Shown here: positions 2,242 through 15,111 of the stretch, piece after piece
Position numbering within the stretch: the first letter of the stretch is position 1
Layout of the letters: each line of letters begins with the position of its first letter
Made by a program: the position numbers and the translations under genes
DNA from: a virus
IMG/VR virus record: IMGVR_UViG_3300042881_001075
Span: 1-32,332 of that record
Direction: 5' to 3' (one strand)
DNA length: 32,332 bases
The notes under the pieces: model-generated
Database searches by the model: none
What the model saw: only the letters and a program-made list of their open reading frames with translations
What the model was told of the DNA's origin: nothing

Positions 2242-3045
2242 TCAACCCTTATATGCTAACGAGAGCCTATCCTTATCAAAATCAATTTCTAAGACTTCAA
2301 CTTCTACCTCATGACCAATAGTAAATTGCTCAGGAGTCCATTTGCCCATTTTAGATTTGTGAACCAAGCCAGAAAGAAGGCCAAGTGAGACGAAGATTCC
2401 AAAATTGTTAATACCTGAAACTCTGCCAATATATGCCTGGCCAATTTCTAATTGAGCAAACTGCATCATCTTATCTTCTTTTTGCTCTTGCTGAACAAGT
2501 GCTTTTCGTGAGATAACGATATTGCCCTTTTCTCTATCAAACTGAATTACCTTGGCTTGAATTATCTGGCCAACATAACGAGAGAAGTCTTCTGACTTAT
2601 CAATGAAAGATTGAGAAGAAGGCAAGAATGCTCTAATTCCAATATCAACAATCATGCCACCCTTGACCAATTTAGTAATTTGGCCAGAGACAACCTTGTC
2701 TTCTGAATTCCAAATAGCCTCAACTTCATTCCAGATAGCCTCAACTTCTGCTTCCTTCATAGACAAAACATACTGGCCTTCTTGGTCAATACCAATAATA
2801 CTGGCATCAACTGTTTGGCCAATTGAGACAACATCATGAATATCAATAGTGCGTCTGGCAGATACTTCCTTCTTAGGTATATATCCTTCAGTCTTACAGC
2901 CAATATCTAGAAGGACTCCTTCACGATCAATCTGTACTACTGTGCCTTTGACTGCATCCCCAACATTATATGTCTTCATGGACTCGTCAATGGCTTTTAG
3001 AAAGTCTTCTAGACTGCCTATATCGTTAATTGCTATTTGGTTCAT
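2242..3045 (-). CDS. Three-domain S1-like RNA-binding protein
   Basis: The 267 residues form three S1 (OB-fold) repeats: about 27-95 (VGDAVKGTVVQIDREGVLLD), about 115-182 (VVSGQITKLVKGGMIVDIG) and about 200-266 (IGQAYIGRVSGINNFGIFVS). Each ends with the usual strand (YVLSMKEAE, NIVISRKAL, RLSLAYKG). This is the architecture of a shortened ribosomal protein S1, which binds mRNA and helps place it on the 30S subunit. The gene starts inside the end of the small-terminase gene (20-base overlap) and ends just before the large terminase. A 21-base tandem duplication gives EVEAIWN twice between domains 1 and 2. A translation role during infection is inferred; a role in packaging or RNA protection is also possible. 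Confidence 0.92.
   Translation of the reverse strand: MNQIAINDIGSLEDFLKAIDESMKTYNVGDAVKGTVVQIDREGVLLDIGCKTEGYIPKKEVSARRTIDIHDVVSIGQTVDASIIGIDQEGQYVLSMKEAEVEAIWNEVEAIWNSEDKVVSGQITKLVKGGMIVDIGIRAFLPSSQSFIDKSEDFSRYVGQIIQAKVIQFDREKGNIVISRKALVQQEQKEDKMMQFAQLEIGQAYIGRVSGINNFGIFVSLGLLSGLVHKSKMGKWTPEQFTIGHEVEVEVLEIDFDKDRLSLAYKG
2710..2751 (-). repeat. 21-base tandem duplication inside the S1-like gene
   Basis: Two adjacent 21-base copies (2710-2730 and 2731-2751) encode EVEAIWN twice in frame. They lie in the linker between S1 domains 1 and 2, so the domains are lengthened apart rather than disrupted. Only a few bases differ between copies. Confidence 0.85.
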
Positions 3046-6462: not shown

Positions 6463-6854
6463 AGTTCTTGATCTACCCCTATAAGTCCAACATTCTCAAC
6501 TGAGGTCATGACATTGAGATGCTTTGGGTTTACACACTTTGGATTATTGCAGATATGATTAATAACCTTGGTTTGTCCAGTAAATGGATCTCCTGCTTTA
6601 GGTAAAGCGTTAAATCCGTAATGTAAAGCATAAGCAAATCTATGAGCCTTTACCTTAACTGATGTTCCTCTTTTTTGTCCATCAACCTTAATTGTAATTT
6701 GAAATGGACGATATCTATCTCTGTAGTCCCACATGGCACCTGTGTACTCAATACAGCCAGTTGACTTATTAACTAACTTGCTCTTGAATCTATCTATAAT
6801 ATTATTATCATTAATGCCATATTGAATGGCTCTATCTTTAGTACTTAGATTCAT
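6459..6854 (-). CDS. HNH homing-type endonuclease
   Basis: A 131-residue protein of the HNH_3 type. It has CIEYTGAMWDYRDRYRPF, then VKAHRFAYALHYGFNALP, then the nuclease core VINHICNNPKCVNPKHLNVM, which holds the catalytic His and the zinc-like Cys/His residues. This family acts as free-standing homing endonucleases that cut intronless target genes and spread within phage populations. It is embedded in the small zinc-protein cluster with coupled overlaps on both sides (TAATG and ATGA), so it is stably integrated rather than a recent insertion. Confidence 0.88.
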   Translation of the reverse strand: MNLSTKDRAIQYGINDNNIIDRFKSKLVNKSTGCIEYTGAMWDYRDRYRPFQITIKVDGQKRGTSVKVKAHRFAYALHYGFNALPKAGDPFTGQTKVINHICNNPKCVNPKHLNVMTSVENVGLIGVDQEL

Positions 6855-7018
6855 TATGCACTCACCAACCCGTATTCCATTAGATATTCTCCAACGGTTG
6901 TGATGCCCTTATATTCGTTACAATCTGCACAGAACTGTGTTGTGCTGTAGTCAATCTTGTCTGCGATGATTGTCTCGCAAAAAATGCAAATTGCTGCATT
7001 CATGTTTTCCATGTTCAT
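6854..7018 (-). CDS. Zinc-ribbon microprotein, 54 residues
   Basis: This is the first gene after the promoter at 7070-7099, with a strong ribosome site (AAAGGGAG, six bases before the ATG). The protein shows CIFCETIIADKIDYS and CADCNEYKGI, two CxxC pairs about 16 residues apart, then a short helix. The stop overlaps the next ATG as TAATG. It probably binds zinc; no specific family is recognised. As the first cistron of the unit it would be among the best expressed. Confidence 0.75.
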   Translation of the reverse strand: MNMENMNAAICIFCETIIADKIDYSTTQFCADCNEYKGITTVGEYLMEYGLVSA

Positions 7019-7069
7019 TTGTTGCTCCCTTTGTTAGTAGTATTTGCAACATCTCTGCTGCATAATATA

Positions 7070-7099
7070 AGTATACCATGACCATTTGCACAATGTCAA
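7070..7099 (-). promoter_or_regulatory. Promoter of the zinc-protein cluster
   Basis: On the minus strand a perfect TTGACA (7094-7099) is followed after 18 bases by TATACT (7070-7075). The bases just before the -10, AAATGGTCATGG, match the promoter at 9379-9408 in 11 of 12 positions. The gap also holds a hairpin-like TTTGGT/ACCAAA pair (7113-7132) after the glycosyltransferase stop, without a U-tract. Confidence 0.8.
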
Positions 7100-8340: not shown

Positions 8341-8500
8341 CTGTTTGCTCCTTCATCTCGTTAATAATTTTGTCTAGTCTATCAATAGCAGCATTTAGGC
8401 TATCAATTGAATCTTGTACTGTTTGTCTTGTAGATTCTTCGCCTCTTGTAAATGCAGCGATTTCGTGTGGTTGTAATATTCTATATTCTGGTCCACCCAT
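8324..8500 (-). CDS. Small coiled-coil protein, 58 residues
   Basis: The ATG at 8500 is chosen because a strong ribosome site, GAGGGAG, lies about nine bases upstream. ATGs at 8542 and 8569 in the same frame lack one. The protein starts MGGPEYRILQPHEIAAFTRG and ends in a helix (DSIDSLNAAIDRLDKIINEM) with heptad-like spacing. It overlaps the next gene by 17 bases. Function unknown. Confidence 0.65.
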   Translation of the reverse strand: MGGPEYRILQPHEIAAFTRGEESTRQTVQDSIDSLNAAIDRLDKIINEMKEQTDGNTN

Positions 8501-8933: not shown

Positions 8934-9149
8934 TTACCACATCTTACAATCTTGAGGTCTATGCATTTTAGCCTTTGTTTCAATGTGCCAAAGCATTTTT
9001 TGACCTACTTTAATTCTTCTAGTACAAGCATCACAATTAACATAATTAAAAGTATTTACTAAAGTTCTCCATCCAGGAGTTTCACTATCAGTATTTAAAT
9101 ATACTTTACTTTTAGTATTTCCTGCTTCCCAATTAATTCTCTTCCCCAT
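8934..9149 (-). CDS. Small zinc-finger-like protein, 71 residues
   Basis: The protein has CDACTRRIKVGQKMLWHIET, then HRPQDC. This C-x2-C, long spacer, H-x4-C layout is seen in small phage zinc proteins with a PARP-finger-like arrangement. The ATG has AAAGGA seven bases upstream and lies within the end of the upstream frame (17-base overlap). DNA or RNA binding is plausible; no closer assignment can be made. Confidence 0.7.
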   Translation of the reverse strand: MGKRINWEAGNTKSKVYLNTDSETPGWRTLVNTFNYVNCDACTRRIKVGQKMLWHIETKAKMHRPQDCKMW

Positions 9150-9315
9150 TACTCTTATCCTTTTCTTTTTGTTTTTTCTTTTCTAGGTAATCTGCCCAAT
9201 CTTCTTTTAACATATGGACATGACTCTTTAAAGCAACTACCCCGTAACCATGCGACTTGTGGTGCTGGTTCAACGGTTGTAACAAGACTGGATTGCTTGC
9301 TACGATAATAAGCAC
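9133..9315 (-). CDS. Uncertain small frame, highly charged C-terminus
   Basis: From a GTG at 9315 this frame gives 60 residues ending in LKEDWADYLEKKKQKEKDKS. A shorter start at ATG 9213 would leave only that tail. The upstream part uses GC-ending codons (CCG, TCG, GGG) unlike its neighbours. An alternative frame across 9200-9300 encodes VEPAPQVAWLRGSCFKESCP with more typical codon use but no start codon. The true gene may use a programmed slip or the sequence may hold an indel; the C-terminal end looks real. Confidence 0.4.
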   Translation of the reverse strand: MLIIVASNPVLLQPLNQHHKSHGYGVVALKSHVHMLKEDWADYLEKKKQKEKDKSNGEEN

Positions 9316-9378
9316 TCTGCCCGTTATCGCTTCTGGACCAACATTGAAGTTATCTCTAAACGCCCTTGAAGTGTTACT

Positions 9379-9408
9379 ATCATACCATGACTATTTATTA
9401 AAAAGCAA
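9379..9408 (-). promoter_or_regulatory. Promoter of the second small-gene cluster
   Basis: TTGCTT (9403-9408), 18 bases, TATGAT (9379-9384) on the minus strand. The -35 box is weak, but AAATAGTCATGG before the -10 nearly repeats the promoter at 7070-7099 and supplies an extended -10. It lies directly downstream of a terminator, as expected where one unit ends and another begins. Confidence 0.65.
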
Positions 9409-9416
9409 ATGGGCAC

Positions 9417-9462
9417 AAAAAAAGGCCCAATGCGGAGAACGGGAGCAATACGCACTGGGACC
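9417..9462 (-). terminator. Rho-independent terminator
   Basis: On the minus strand CCCAGTGCG pairs with CGCATTGGG (one G-U pair), extended by GG and CC around a bulged base, with a 16-base loop, then seven T. It ends leftward transcription from the lysis side and would also end a short RNA begun at about 9499. Confidence 0.85.
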
Positions 9463-9500
9463 TAATTTGTCTATGGAAATCACGGAGGTGAACTCATAGA
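9417..9500 (-). ncRNA. Candidate small RNA with anti-Shine-Dalgarno loop
   Basis: A strong promoter (9506-9535) and a strong terminator (9417-9462) enclose about 80 bases with no credible gene. The 5' part folds into a perfect 6-base stem TCTATG/CATAGA (9470-9475 with 9495-9500). Its 19-base loop contains TTCACCTCC, the sequence at the 3' end of 16S rRNA that pairs with ribosome sites. The terminator loop holds two more C-rich runs (CTCCC, TCTCC). C-rich loops of this kind are how several Gram-positive small RNAs block translation starts. Existence and targets are inferred. Confidence 0.55.
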
Positions 9501-9505
9501 ATACT

Positions 9506-9535
9506 ATTGTAGCAGGTGTTATAACTTGCTGTCAA
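9506..9535 (-). promoter_or_regulatory. Strong promoter upstream of the candidate small RNA
   Basis: On the minus strand a perfect TTGACA (9530-9535), 18 bases, TACAAT (9506-9511, five of six). The expected start is 9497-9502. The only thing downstream before the terminator is the hairpin with the CACCTCC loop. Confidence 0.75.
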
Positions 9536-9545
9536 ACACCTACGC

Positions 9546-9644
9546 TTAGTATACTTTTTTAACTATTAAATTACCATCTTTATCAACTTGCAGCACTTCT
9601 TCGTATTGCAAAGAATCTACTAATGCTTTTTCTTCTTCTATCAT
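9546..9644 (-). CDS. Peptide of 32 residues after the lysin gene
   Basis: A very short frame, MIEEEKALVDSLQYEEVLQV and then DKDGNLIVKKVY. AGGTGG lies seven bases before the ATG, which begins one base after the lysin stop. The start, spacing and acidic-then-basic pattern support a small expressed protein. No function can be assigned. It is the last gene before the small-RNA promoter. Confidence 0.55.
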   Translation of the reverse strand: MIEEEKALVDSLQYEEVLQVDKDGNLIVKKVY

Positions 9645-9645
9645 T

Positions 9646-10092
9646 TTAGTACCACCTATTCTTTTGAAAATGTTTCCAGGCTCCACATGGAGTGGAATGC
9701 CGTCTTGATATGTAAGACAGCGTAGCAACTAATTGGGCTACTGCACTATCTGACTTCTTCATGCCAAGACTGCTTACTGTGCTATCTAACATCTGTCCAA
9801 TCCCACTTGCGGTGGAAGTAGGGTTCTTAGCCTCTGGTCTCCAGGCTGACTCTTTCCCTACCAATTTGGTCAGGCATAAAAACTGCTTTGGATCAAGCAA
9901 TTCCTTTGCTATTTCTTTTGCAGATACCTGCTCTAGTATTGGCCTTGGCTCATAAACTATCGTAGGTTCTGGTTTTGCTGTGTCTGTTGTAATACTTGTT
10001 TGAAGAAAAACTGCTAGTAAAGAGACTATTAGAACTCTTGACCATAGATTTTTGTTTCGCTTAATAAATCTTCTCCTTTGGTTAGTGAACAT
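9646..10092 (-). CDS. Lysin: lytic transglycosylase-like, with signal anchor
   Basis: From the ATG at 10092 the protein has 148 residues. A basic N-terminus (QRRRFIKRNKNLWSR) precedes a hydrophobic segment (VLIVSLLAVFLQTSI), a signal peptide or signal-arrest anchor. The catalytic domain has CLTKLVGKESAWRPEAKNPT, with the Glu of the KES motif as catalytic acid, TASGIGQML, and the actinobacterial ending STPCGAWKHFQKNRWY. It would cut peptidoglycan glycan strands at the end of infection. The best ribosome site upstream serves an overlapping frame (10029-10109), so the lysin start itself is poorly served; coupling is likely. Confidence 0.85.
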   Translation of the reverse strand: MFTNQRRRFIKRNKNLWSRVLIVSLLAVFLQTSITTDTAKPEPTIVYEPRPILEQVSAKEIAKELLDPKQFLCLTKLVGKESAWRPEAKNPTSTASGIGQMLDSTVSSLGMKKSDSAVAQLVATLSYISRRHSTPCGAWKHFQKNRWY

Positions 10093-10109
10093 CCCCAACT
10101 CATTGGCAT
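10029..10109 (-). CDS. Overlapping 26-residue frame at the lysin start
   Basis: An AAGGAGGT site ends six bases before an ATG at 10109 that is out of frame with the lysin. It encodes MPMSWGCSLTKGEDLLSETK plus six residues, and stops inside the lysin coding region. The lysin ATG at 10092 lies 24 bases from this site, too far for direct use. Either this is a leader peptide that couples or delays lysin translation, or an indel separates the lysin from its true start. Confidence 0.45.
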   Translation of the reverse strand: MPMSWGCSLTKGEDLLSETKIYGQEF

Positions 10110-12587: not shown

Positions 12588-13554
12588 AGTTATAGATAAA
12601 ATCGTACATTTCTTGATAGTCTTTACAGTCCCAAGGATCCACATTCTTGTAGGTAACATCTTCTAATGATTTAACTATGTCGTGTTCCCAGTCAAACAGG
12701 TATCTTGTGTTTGGCCTTATTGCATAGAACTTAGTTCCATTCTGAGACCATATTGCGTTGTGAAAGGCAGTTCCAATAATTCCAGCCATGTGTGTAGCGT
12801 TGTGAGAGATTCTTATTTGATCCTGTAAAGGTCTTCCTGACCAACTAACAACAGCATATCCTTTGTCAACAAAGGCATTCTCTATTGCGTCTTCTACCCA
12901 TTCCTCAAAGTATCTATTCTTAAAGTATTGGTTCTTGTTTAGACCACTCTTTTTCATATCTTGACTGACATTCTTTCTACTCATAAAAATCTTTTTAGGC
13001 ATGTTCTCGTCATCAATTTTGTAGTCTTTAAAATAATTGGCCAATGCTTTAGAAACCTGTGGACAGTGTGCCTCAGCAAAGAAAGGAAACTCACCATTAA
13101 AAAAAACTCTTTGATTGTCCATCATAATTACAAGATTTTCTATAAAGAAACTTGTGTCATGAATCTCATTTCCCATCATGTATATGCCATGATCGCCAAA
13201 GTCTTGCATGATCTTTCCATGAGCAAACTCTATTAGTTCAGCCATTGGATGAAAAGTGTAGTTGTCTTTTCCAGAAAAGGTCTCTAAGAAGAAAGGCTTT
13301 AGGTCTTTAAATATTGATTGACAGTATAAAAATCCACCCACAGATTCTTTTAGCCAGTGTCCGTATTGTCTGCCTCCATCTGTAAGGCACATCCAATATC
13401 CTGGCATTTCATAATGCTTTTTGTTCTTAGCCCATGGATTAATTCTAACATTCTTAAATACATAGACAGGCAAGTCTTCATTTGGGACTGAGATAACTTC
13501 GTCATAATATGTCTCAAAGTTAAATATTGGTCTTTCAAATTGACTATTAGACAT
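12568..13554 (-). CDS. GT61-like (DUF563) glycosyltransferase
   Basis: A 328-residue protein with the family landmarks in order: GRQYGHWLKESVGGFLYC in the middle of the first half, KKIFMSRKNVSQ near residue 187, and the C-terminal GYAVVSWSGRPLQDQIRIS with MAGIIGTAFHNAIWSQNGTK. GT61 enzymes add pentoses, GlcNAc or related sugars to proteins and polysaccharides. It is the last gene of the late operon, coupled to the radical SAM gene (TAATG). Being transcribed with virion and oxygenase genes suggests a virion glycan target; that is inference. No membrane segment is seen. Confidence 0.85.
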   Translation of the reverse strand: MSNSQFERPIFNFETYYDEVISVPNEDLPVYVFKNVRINPWAKNKKHYEMPGYWMCLTDGGRQYGHWLKESVGGFLYCQSIFKDLKPFFLETFSGKDNYTFHPMAELIEFAHGKIMQDFGDHGIYMMGNEIHDTSFFIENLVIMMDNQRVFFNGEFPFFAEAHCPQVSKALANYFKDYKIDDENMPKKIFMSRKNVSQDMKKSGLNKNQYFKNRYFEEWVEDAIENAFVDKGYAVVSWSGRPLQDQIRISHNATHMAGIIGTAFHNAIWSQNGTKFYAIRPNTRYLFDWEHDIVKSLEDVTYKNVDPWDCKDYQEMYDFIYNSIDDES

Positions 13555-14408
13555 TAGAACTCATCTACTTTCAGATCTATCTTGCATCCTGCACAAATAC
13601 CAGACTTAGGCCCATCCTTCTCAAGATGGTCTCTCCAAGGCTTATACTTTTCGTTTCTGTAGATTTCCCACAGTGGAGCATCATTTACATGAGCCATAAT
13701 TCCATTCTTGTGCTCAGGTACATCTGATCTTGTGTTGCAACAGACCATTACGCTTCCATTGTAATCAATGTACATATTCTTGAATGGTTGTGTACATGCT
13801 TTTGTTCTTACATATTCTTCGTTAAATCCCGCAACTTTTTCAGTTCTGGCAGTTCCCTCAACAGCAAAGTTTCTTGCTCTTAGATGTACTACTATGCCAT
13901 CTACGATTAGGTCGTATTCAATTCTGTGGTTTTCTATGTCAGAAATAACAACATAGTCAACACCCAGCATCTTTATCTTCTGTTGCATACGCTTCTTCAT
14001 CTTGGCATGGTCGTATTGCTCATTATTTGCAAGGTACTGTTGAATAAACAACTCGTTAAGCCCTGCGTCTCTAAGAGCATAAATATAGTCAAGGGTAACA
14101 TAGTCACCATTTGTGTTGGTTCTAAGTTTTGACTTTGGTAAGATTTCTCTGGCTTGAGAGATACGCTTTAGGATTATCTCTCTATAGGCTAATGGCTCGT
14201 TATACCTGCTATAGGTAATTTCTTTGTCATAGTCTATTTCTGCTAACTGATTAAGGATAGATAGATACATTTCTTCTGGCATCACATTATTGTCAGAATG
14301 CCTATCTATAAAAGAGTTAGGACAAAACCAGCATTTTCTATTACAGAAAGAGTATACTTCTATTTCTATAAGGTTGAGTTGGCCTTTAAACCACTTTTGA
14401 AGGTCCAT
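13554..14408 (-). CDS. Radical SAM enzyme with SPASM-like C-terminus
   Basis: The start at 14408 follows GGGA eight bases upstream and gives 284 residues; the longer in-frame reading lies entirely inside the oxygenase gene upstream. CNRKCWFC at residues 22-29 is the CxxxCxxC cluster motif that binds the SAM iron-sulfur cluster, with YSRYNEPLAYREI and LRTNTNGDYV downstream. The end has KACTQPFKNMYIDYNGSVMV, CC and ICAGCK, the cysteines of a SPASM/Twitch auxiliary cluster. Such enzymes modify peptides or sugars by radical chemistry. It sits between oxygenase and glycosyltransferase genes with 23- and 1-base overlaps. Confidence 0.92.
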   Translation of the reverse strand: MDLQKWFKGQLNLIEIEVYSFCNRKCWFCPNSFIDRHSDNNVMPEEMYLSILNQLAEIDYDKEITYSRYNEPLAYREIILKRISQAREILPKSKLRTNTNGDYVTLDYIYALRDAGLNELFIQQYLANNEQYDHAKMKKRMQQKIKMLGVDYVVISDIENHRIEYDLIVDGIVVHLRARNFAVEGTARTEKVAGFNEEYVRTKACTQPFKNMYIDYNGSVMVCCNTRSDVPEHKNGIMAHVNDAPLWEIYRNEKYKPWRDHLEKDGPKSGICAGCKIDLKVDEF

Positions 14409-15111
14409 ATAGAGTGTCCCAATACTCTTTTTCTGCCTGATACTTTTCTTCAAAGTTAGCAACATGGCGATAGTCACAGCATTTGCATACAGGTCTTCCA
14501 TCGCTATAGTCAGGCATTGACCATTCTCCGTATTGAACTCTAAACTTAAAGTCTGACTTCCATGAATTTTCAGCAAATCCTTCTTGGTCTTTTTGAGTAA
14601 AGAACCAGTGGTCAGGCTCTGCAAACTGCATGAATAGAAGTGTTACAAATTTGTCTTCGTCTTCTGTTGGAAACTTTGGTCTCCAGTGCATGTGATCATT
14701 GCCAGAAAAGACGATGCACTGATTAGGTGCTTCATCAAAAGTCTTATCATCTGCAATTAATTGCCAGTCAACATTCTTATCAATACAGATATCTAGCGAG
14801 TACTGGCAAGCAGACTGATCAACATGCTTCCATAGTTGTGGAGTGATACCGTTTTGCTTTTGGTATCTAGCAGTATGAAATCCAGCCCTTTGAAGTTTGT
14901 CATTTCCAAAAGTCTTCTTTGCTATTTCCAAAATCTCTGCCTCTGTTTCAGGATCAAAATCAATCTGTGTAAGCCATCGTCCTGCTACTGTGTGATAGAA
15001 GTGTGGACCATCTGGACCCATATCCAAGGAAAGAACCTTTGCCTTAACCTTCTCAAATAGTTCTGGTGGAAAGAAGTCTACAATAGATCTTGCTTCAACA
15101 TTACTTGTCAT
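14386..15111 (-). CDS. Fe(II)/2-oxoglutarate oxygenase-like protein with Cys tail
   Basis: In 241 residues the metal triad reads H96-V-D98 (KHVDQSACQYSLDICID) and H142 (GNDHMHWRPKF), followed by FMQFAEPDHWFFT. The same HW-R and VEPDHW-F blocks occur in its neighbour at 15101-15667, so the two are paralogues. It has about 50 extra C-terminal residues with CKCCDYRH, a possible metal site. These folds hydroxylate proteins or small molecules using iron and 2-oxoglutarate. The start overlaps the end of the paralogue by 11 bases. Confidence 0.75.
   Translation of the reverse strand: MTSNVEARSIVDFFPPELFEKVKAKVLSLDMGPDGPHFYHTVAGRWLTQIDFDPETEAEILEIAKKTFGNDKLQRAGFHTARYQKQNGITPQLWKHVDQSACQYSLDICIDKNVDWQLIADDKTFDEAPNQCIVFSGNDHMHWRPKFPTEDEDKFVTLLFMQFAEPDHWFFTQKDQEGFAENSWKSDFKFRVQYGEWSMPDYSDGRPVCKCCDYRHVANFEEKYQAEKEYWDTLYGPSKVV

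Follow-up and report, generated by a model that had tools for sequence, protein, structure and literature searches.

Does a short stretch between two genes of this viral contig, at 9417-9535, encode a small RNA (sRNA), and if so, what would that RNA pair with? A preliminary description of the window (the whole 32,332-nt stretch analysed here) had noted a TTGACA-18-TACAAT promoter followed by a strong terminator with no gene between, a first hairpin whose loop matches the 3′ end of 16S rRNA, and a C-rich terminator loop. It supposed that such an RNA could silence messages led by Shine-Dalgarno (SD) sites while leaderless phage messages escape.

The sRNA unit

The promoter and terminator could be placed as described, on the minus strand, and no reading frame is kept between them. 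The features of the unit and its upstream neighbours are:

9646-10098 (-): transglycosylase (SLT) gene, the constant upstream neighbour of the sRNA
9546-9644 (-): 32-aa ORF between the transglycosylase gene and the sRNA
9506-9535 (-): sigma-70-type sRNA promoter, TTGACA-18-TACAAT with TG, found by promoter scan; the layout is the same in most relatives
9417-9505 (-): predicted sRNA of about 83-89 nt, with the transcript start placed at about 9499 ± 4
9470-9500 (-): hairpin 1, which presents the anti-SD sequence, based on folding and on compensatory change in relatives
9484-9491 (-): loop 1 core, UCACCUCC, conserved in relatives
9417-9462 (-): intrinsic terminator hairpin and T run; in relatives the stem sequence differs and the pairing is kept
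9435-9450 (-): loop 2 (the terminator loop), UAUUGCUCCCGUUCUC, in which UUGCUCCC at 9448-9441 is complementary to the target

The -35 element TTGACA occupies 9535-9530 and the -10 element TACAAT 9511-9506, separated by an 18-nt spacer. The promoter has 11 of 12 consensus matches in addition to the TG extension and is the top of seven hits in 2 kb, a length for which shuffles yield 6.2 hits of any score. The terminator is formed by 9 bp and 2 GC pairs around a 16-nt loop, C-rich as described, followed by seven T with the 3′ end at 9417; a simple terminator scan missed it because the loop limit of that scan is 8. Folding of the 85 nt at 9416-9500 gave -29.8 kcal/mol; shuffles gave -13.7 (z -6.4), and none was equally stable. 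Rfam returned no match in the window at gathering score, and none for 9100-9600 at E up to 5. Like a trans-encoded antisense RNA, the unit has a promoter and terminator of its own and lacks a conserved frame.

The arms of hairpin 1 are 9500-9495 and 9475-9470, and UUCACCUCC sits in and beside its loop. The loop 1 core is identical to part of the 16S rRNA 3′ end, in agreement with the match first noticed, and the anti-SD CUCC is unpaired in the window (P about 1.0). Since UCACCUCC occurs a single time in the 32-kb window, counting either strand, which is near chance level taken alone, the case rests on conservation in relatives. On the opposite strand, GGAGGTGA at 9484 (+) was considered as the SD site of a plus-strand gene and rejected, there being no start codon that consistently follows it in relatives (by eye).

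Directly after the sRNA, the region 9245-9410 (-) holds a second promoter-like site, TTGCTT-18-TATGAT, and the roughly 130 bases that follow this site are conserved at the DNA level in L002, L006, L030 and L032 (GGGCGTTTAGAGAT...CAATGTTGG). The region has no Rfam match and a weak fold (z about -1); it could be another RNA or a small gene that changes fast.

Conservation among relatives

Five further IMG/VR contigs match a 19-mer from hairpin 1. All have the promoter, the hairpin and a terminator, the last of which stays paired although its sequence may differ. Forty-six related loci were fetched via the upstream transglycosylase gene, several of them the same contigs as the 19-mer matches. The sRNA unit lies downstream of the transglycosylase gene in 32 of the 46; two loci stop short of where it would be, and the 12 without the unit are the most distant, at no more than 44% protein identity.

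The main group has at least six versions of the hairpin 1 sequence and four types of terminator. Stems vary widely, and CCUCC is present in the first hairpin of every unit-carrying locus except L013, which has CUCCC (GCUCCCUUUCU). CCUCC or its last four bases are largely unpaired in nearly all members. Even the distant members L031, L032, L035 and L037-L039, which have no alignable stem, still present CCUCC, mostly unpaired, in the first hairpin; loop 1 of L035 has the 16S 3′-end sequence GGAUCACCUCCU. A compensatory change from G-C to A-U is seen in the outer stem of hairpin 1 in L017 and L029. What the related phages conserve, a check that the preliminary description had suggested, is the hairpins and a constant CCUCC, while the stem sequences drift. 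A consensus fold of the mixed alignment recovered the outer stem of hairpin 1 alone, since the different terminator types do not line up in that alignment.

A gapped pattern with 21 fixed bases matched 20 viral contigs, all of them already in the family, and had no match in 84,980 prokaryote species genomes. Model R1 found one strong copy per main-group contig and weaker matches in most of the distant members; in six more distant phages it found nothing better than E 0.09. A host chromosomal origin was rejected, with no pattern match and no transglycosylase relative in genome contigs. As far as can be judged from sequence, this is a real small-RNA family that presents an anti-SD loop.

Two further observations concern individual relatives. 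In L031, L035, L037 and L039 the anti-SD hairpin is preceded on its 5′ side by an additional one, whose loop contains GUUGCCAU and may be a third seed. In L003, L004 and L007 the gene beginning MYIKQVRS or MYLKQVRS is followed by several hundred bases of structured-looking intergenic DNA with AAGCAAAGCCTTACGGCTTTA-type repeats, for which Rfam had nothing; its one hit on L003 (BjrC68) was sub-threshold and lay elsewhere in that locus.

A predicted, coevolving target for loop 2

Pairing energies were scanned, with start sites chosen by rule. The best partners of loop 2 were often ribosome-binding sites (RBSs) of phage genes, above all that of one gene:

7070-7099 (-): promoter-like TTGACA-18-TATACT ahead of the Cys-rich gene (consensus match only)
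7022-7029 (-): target site GGGAGCAA within the Cys-rich gene's RBS; its end lies 4 bases ahead of the ATG
6854-7018 (-): gene for a 54-aa Cys-rich protein (CxxC...CxxC, putative zinc-ribbon), the predicted loop 2 target

The gene lies about 2.4 kb downstream of the sRNA (window ATG at 7018), after a glycosyltransferase gene, and its product had neither a Pfam match above cut-off nor a PHROG. Loop 2 of the window pairs, through UUGCUCCC (9448-9441), with GGGAGCAA (7029-7022), so the C-rich terminator loop is also complementary to a phage RBS; the prediction for the target site in isolation is that it pairs largely with its own coding region. Loop 2 is complementary to the RBS of the Cys-rich gene in 20 of 21 phages, and the two sides change together: UAUUGCUCCC occurs with GGGAGCAGUA (L010, L029), UCUCAUUCUC with GAGAAUGAGA (L035), UACCCGUUCC with GGAAUGGGUA (L013), and UCCCAUUCU with AGAAUGGGA. 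The only member that fails to pair well is L031, with a short terminator loop (-4.1); in L024 the site of another gene pairs with loop 2 better than that of the Cys-rich gene does.

Pairing of each loop 2 with its own site averaged -14.9 kcal/mol against -11.2 for permuted combinations (n = 21, z -7.0, p = 5e-5, which is the floor of 20,000 permutations), while loop 1, used as a control, gave z -0.3. When one phage was kept per loop type, p was about 5e-4, again the floor of the test. Among 74 phage gene families tested with both loops, only the Cys-rich gene stood out as an outlier for loop 2 (z -6.7; the next was -2.5). All families share the same phages, and ancestry alone should raise other families too; the interaction between loop 2 and the Cys-rich RBS is well supported at the sequence level. 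Such covarying complementarity to the initiation region of a target is a further feature of trans-encoded antisense sRNAs. Because loop 2 coevolves with the RBS of one phage gene, one function of the sRNA would be specific regulation inside the phage, and because the pairing site lies on the RBS, that regulation would be repression.

Weaker loop 2 covariation (z -2.2 to -2.5) was seen at the RBSs of the window genes at 8500 (-) and 5516 (-), whose products begin MGGPEYRI and MTYLWIAL, and likewise for the MGKKIKAK family in relatives. These genes are possibly secondary targets, so loop 2 may have several.

Loop 1 and Shine-Dalgarno sites

Loop 1 has no covarying partner among the 74 phage gene families (best z -2.1). 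Recurrent weak fits, at the gene starting at 6854 and at others, were rejected as its phage target because they do not covary. A constant core with no covarying phage partner is expected if loop 1 faces something constant; if so, that partner would be SD sites generally, messages of the host, or a protein recognising the 16S end. A host-wide effect is possible.

Most phage genes have AAGGAG(A)- or GGGAG-type sites near their starts, so the idea that leaderless messages escape finds no support; what stands of the preliminary interpretation is a phage sRNA with a conserved anti-SD loop. Such sites find their match on the UUUC side of the 16S tail, a part that loop 1 lacks, and not in UCACCUCC, and this register might spare phage messages from loop 1. 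A seemingly strong avoidance in the phages of GAGGTGA, complementary to the loop 1 core, with none seen against 9.2 or 5.3 expected in 243 kb, was rejected after it faded to two against 7.4 in 538 kb of phage coding strands. Among comparable 7-mers, 78 of 978 are as rare as GAGGUGA, and the depletion is marginal and not significant.

A phage protein may be connected with these questions:

2242-3045 (-): phage protein with three S1 domains, 267 aa, a possible partner of the sRNA

Its homologues are 49-82% identical in 15 related contigs, and it is distant from the S1 proteins of reference phages (36% at best). Ribosomal protein bS1 has four to six S1 repeats (PMC6375957); the window protein has three S1 stretches, and we therefore call it an S1-domain protein. 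All six sRNA-bearing contigs longer than 31 kb carry the gene, and none of six contigs lacking the sRNA unit does; it is absent near its usual place in some sRNA members with enough sequence (contigs G016, G030 and G031).

Proposed mechanism and alternatives

The family points to an RNA switch that would control protein production during infection. We think it probable that the conserved promoter-hairpin-terminator unit yields an sRNA that acts in trans through two exposed pyrimidine-rich loops. Loop 2 would block ribosome binding on the Cys-rich messenger, and thereby tune a phage gene with a putative promoter of its own. Loop 1 would pair, and here the proposal is weaker, with GGAGG(U)-type SD sites of other messengers, most likely those of the host, given that no coevolving partner for this loop was found among the phage genes.

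That the unit is instead a mere gene end or a short leaderless ORF (a leader peptide, an attenuator or a plain terminator) seems very improbable. The ATG in hairpin 1 is close to the likely transcription start, and MKFTSVISIEP can be read from it in some relatives. However, the frames opened by this ATG, 5 to 17 or more codons long, are not the same from one relative to the next, the ATG itself is absent in L017 and L029, and most members have a broken or different frame. Relatives that kept a protein frame rather than the hairpins had been named beforehand as evidence against an sRNA, and it is the hairpins that they keep. A leader peptide was rejected on this ground, and the lack of a conserved frame largely refutes the whole reading, against which the separate promoter after the terminator and the coevolution of loop 2 also count. 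With roles reversed, the Cys-rich messenger would be a sponge that mops up the sRNA and so frees the targets of loop 1; the pairing data give no direction. We hold this to be quite unlikely, as a site placed exactly on the RBS of a conserved protein gene suits repression better.

The other alternatives concern what loop 1 does. It might, with loop 2, be a general anti-SD decoy that pairs with many host messages and shuts off host translation, sparing phage messages with AAGGAGAA-register sites. This is near the original suggestion, compatible with the proposed function of loop 2, and consistent with an invariant CCUCC on drifting stems, with phage sites in the AAGGAG register and with an S1-domain protein in many phages of the family. 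We nevertheless consider it somewhat unlikely, given the non-significant depletion of GAGGUGA in phage genes, the specific coevolving phage target of loop 2, and the very high RNA levels that an 8-base loop would presumably need against abundant host messages. Loop 1 could also copy the 16S 3′ end in order to titrate a binding protein, for instance an S1 of host or phage origin, some other factor that binds ribosomes, or an enzyme of rRNA processing. The L035 loop and the six-of-six against none-of-six distribution of the S1-domain gene would fit such mimicry, but in the other members nothing beyond CCUCC is kept and its surroundings are unrelated, which fits base-pairing better than protein recognition, and the gene is missing near its usual place in the three contigs named above; we find mimicry improbable. 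A joint scheme, in which an RNA-protein pair seizes initiation, is speculative and unlikely: loop 1, as a copy of the ribosomal anti-SD, would occupy host SD sites of the GGAGGUGA register, the S1-domain protein would favour phage messages with AAGGAG-register sites, and the terminator loop, its seed coevolving with the RBS of the Cys-rich gene, would time that gene.

Comparison with known RNAs

Few phage-encoded sRNAs have been described; most belong to phages of enterobacteria and Vibrio, and several need Hfq. Among bacterial RNAs, NfeR1, of the alpha-r14 family of Rhizobiales, carries the anti-SD motif CCUCCUCCC in unpaired loops on strongly divergent stems and pairs with the translation initiation region of ntrB, silencing it (PMC10746234). 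The phage sRNA likewise holds its anti-SD motif constant on varying stems. It has, however, one CCUCC hairpin where alpha-r14 has three hairpins each with CCUCCUCCC and redundant in function; its terminator loop (UCCCRUUYUC-like or other) is target-specific, unlike alpha-r14 loops; and it is found in viral contigs only (0 in 84,980 genomes), whereas alpha-r14 belongs to alphaproteobacterial chromosomes. The 6C/B11 sRNA of mycobacteria acts on messenger 5′ regions through two C-rich loops, which in B11 are interchangeable and bind G tracts (PMC10470900). Two C-rich loops are also found here, but loop 2 covaries with its target and loop 1 does not, which differs from exchangeable loops, and the Rfam search above gave no covariance-model match to a described RNA family.

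In Staphylococcus aureus, sRNAs with C-rich loops find their targets at ribosome-binding sites. An exposed C-rich loop region finds the target messages in RNAIII, RsaE and SprD (PMC11188477); these differ from the phage sRNA in host, sequence and architecture, and no homology was found. The phage antisense RNAs c4 (P1/P7) and sar (P22) block translation initiation of phage genes by base-pairing, their targets being the antirepressor (ant) messages of temperate phages, and c4 acts near the RBS with its seed likely in a loop (PMC12197685). The present sRNA would resemble them as a phage RNA that pairs at the translation initiation region of a phage gene; it differs in the trans-encoded seed in its terminator loop, its unrelated Cys-rich target and its extra anti-SD loop. 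In kind, it would work like NfeR1, 6C/B11, c4 and sar, while it lacks most of the features tested for membership of alpha-r14 and 6C.

No description of a phage anti-SD sRNA was found in the literature searched, which is not proof of absence. The family described here comes from uncultured phages, with an actinobacteriophage as their nearest reference; it has kept an anti-SD loop and makes phage use of anti-SD RNA to steer translation directly testable. Its clear trace of coevolution with a target in its own genome allows that target to be named from sequence alone.

Host and phage context

TerL and portal are nearest to those of Pontimonas phage phiPsal1 (44% and 40%), a similarity that points to actinobacteria as host but is only suggestive. 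No sRNA unit was seen by eye beside the CACCTCC sites of phiPsal1. Small as the phage is, it encodes a radical SAM/SPASM protein, at 13554-14624 (-) of the window.
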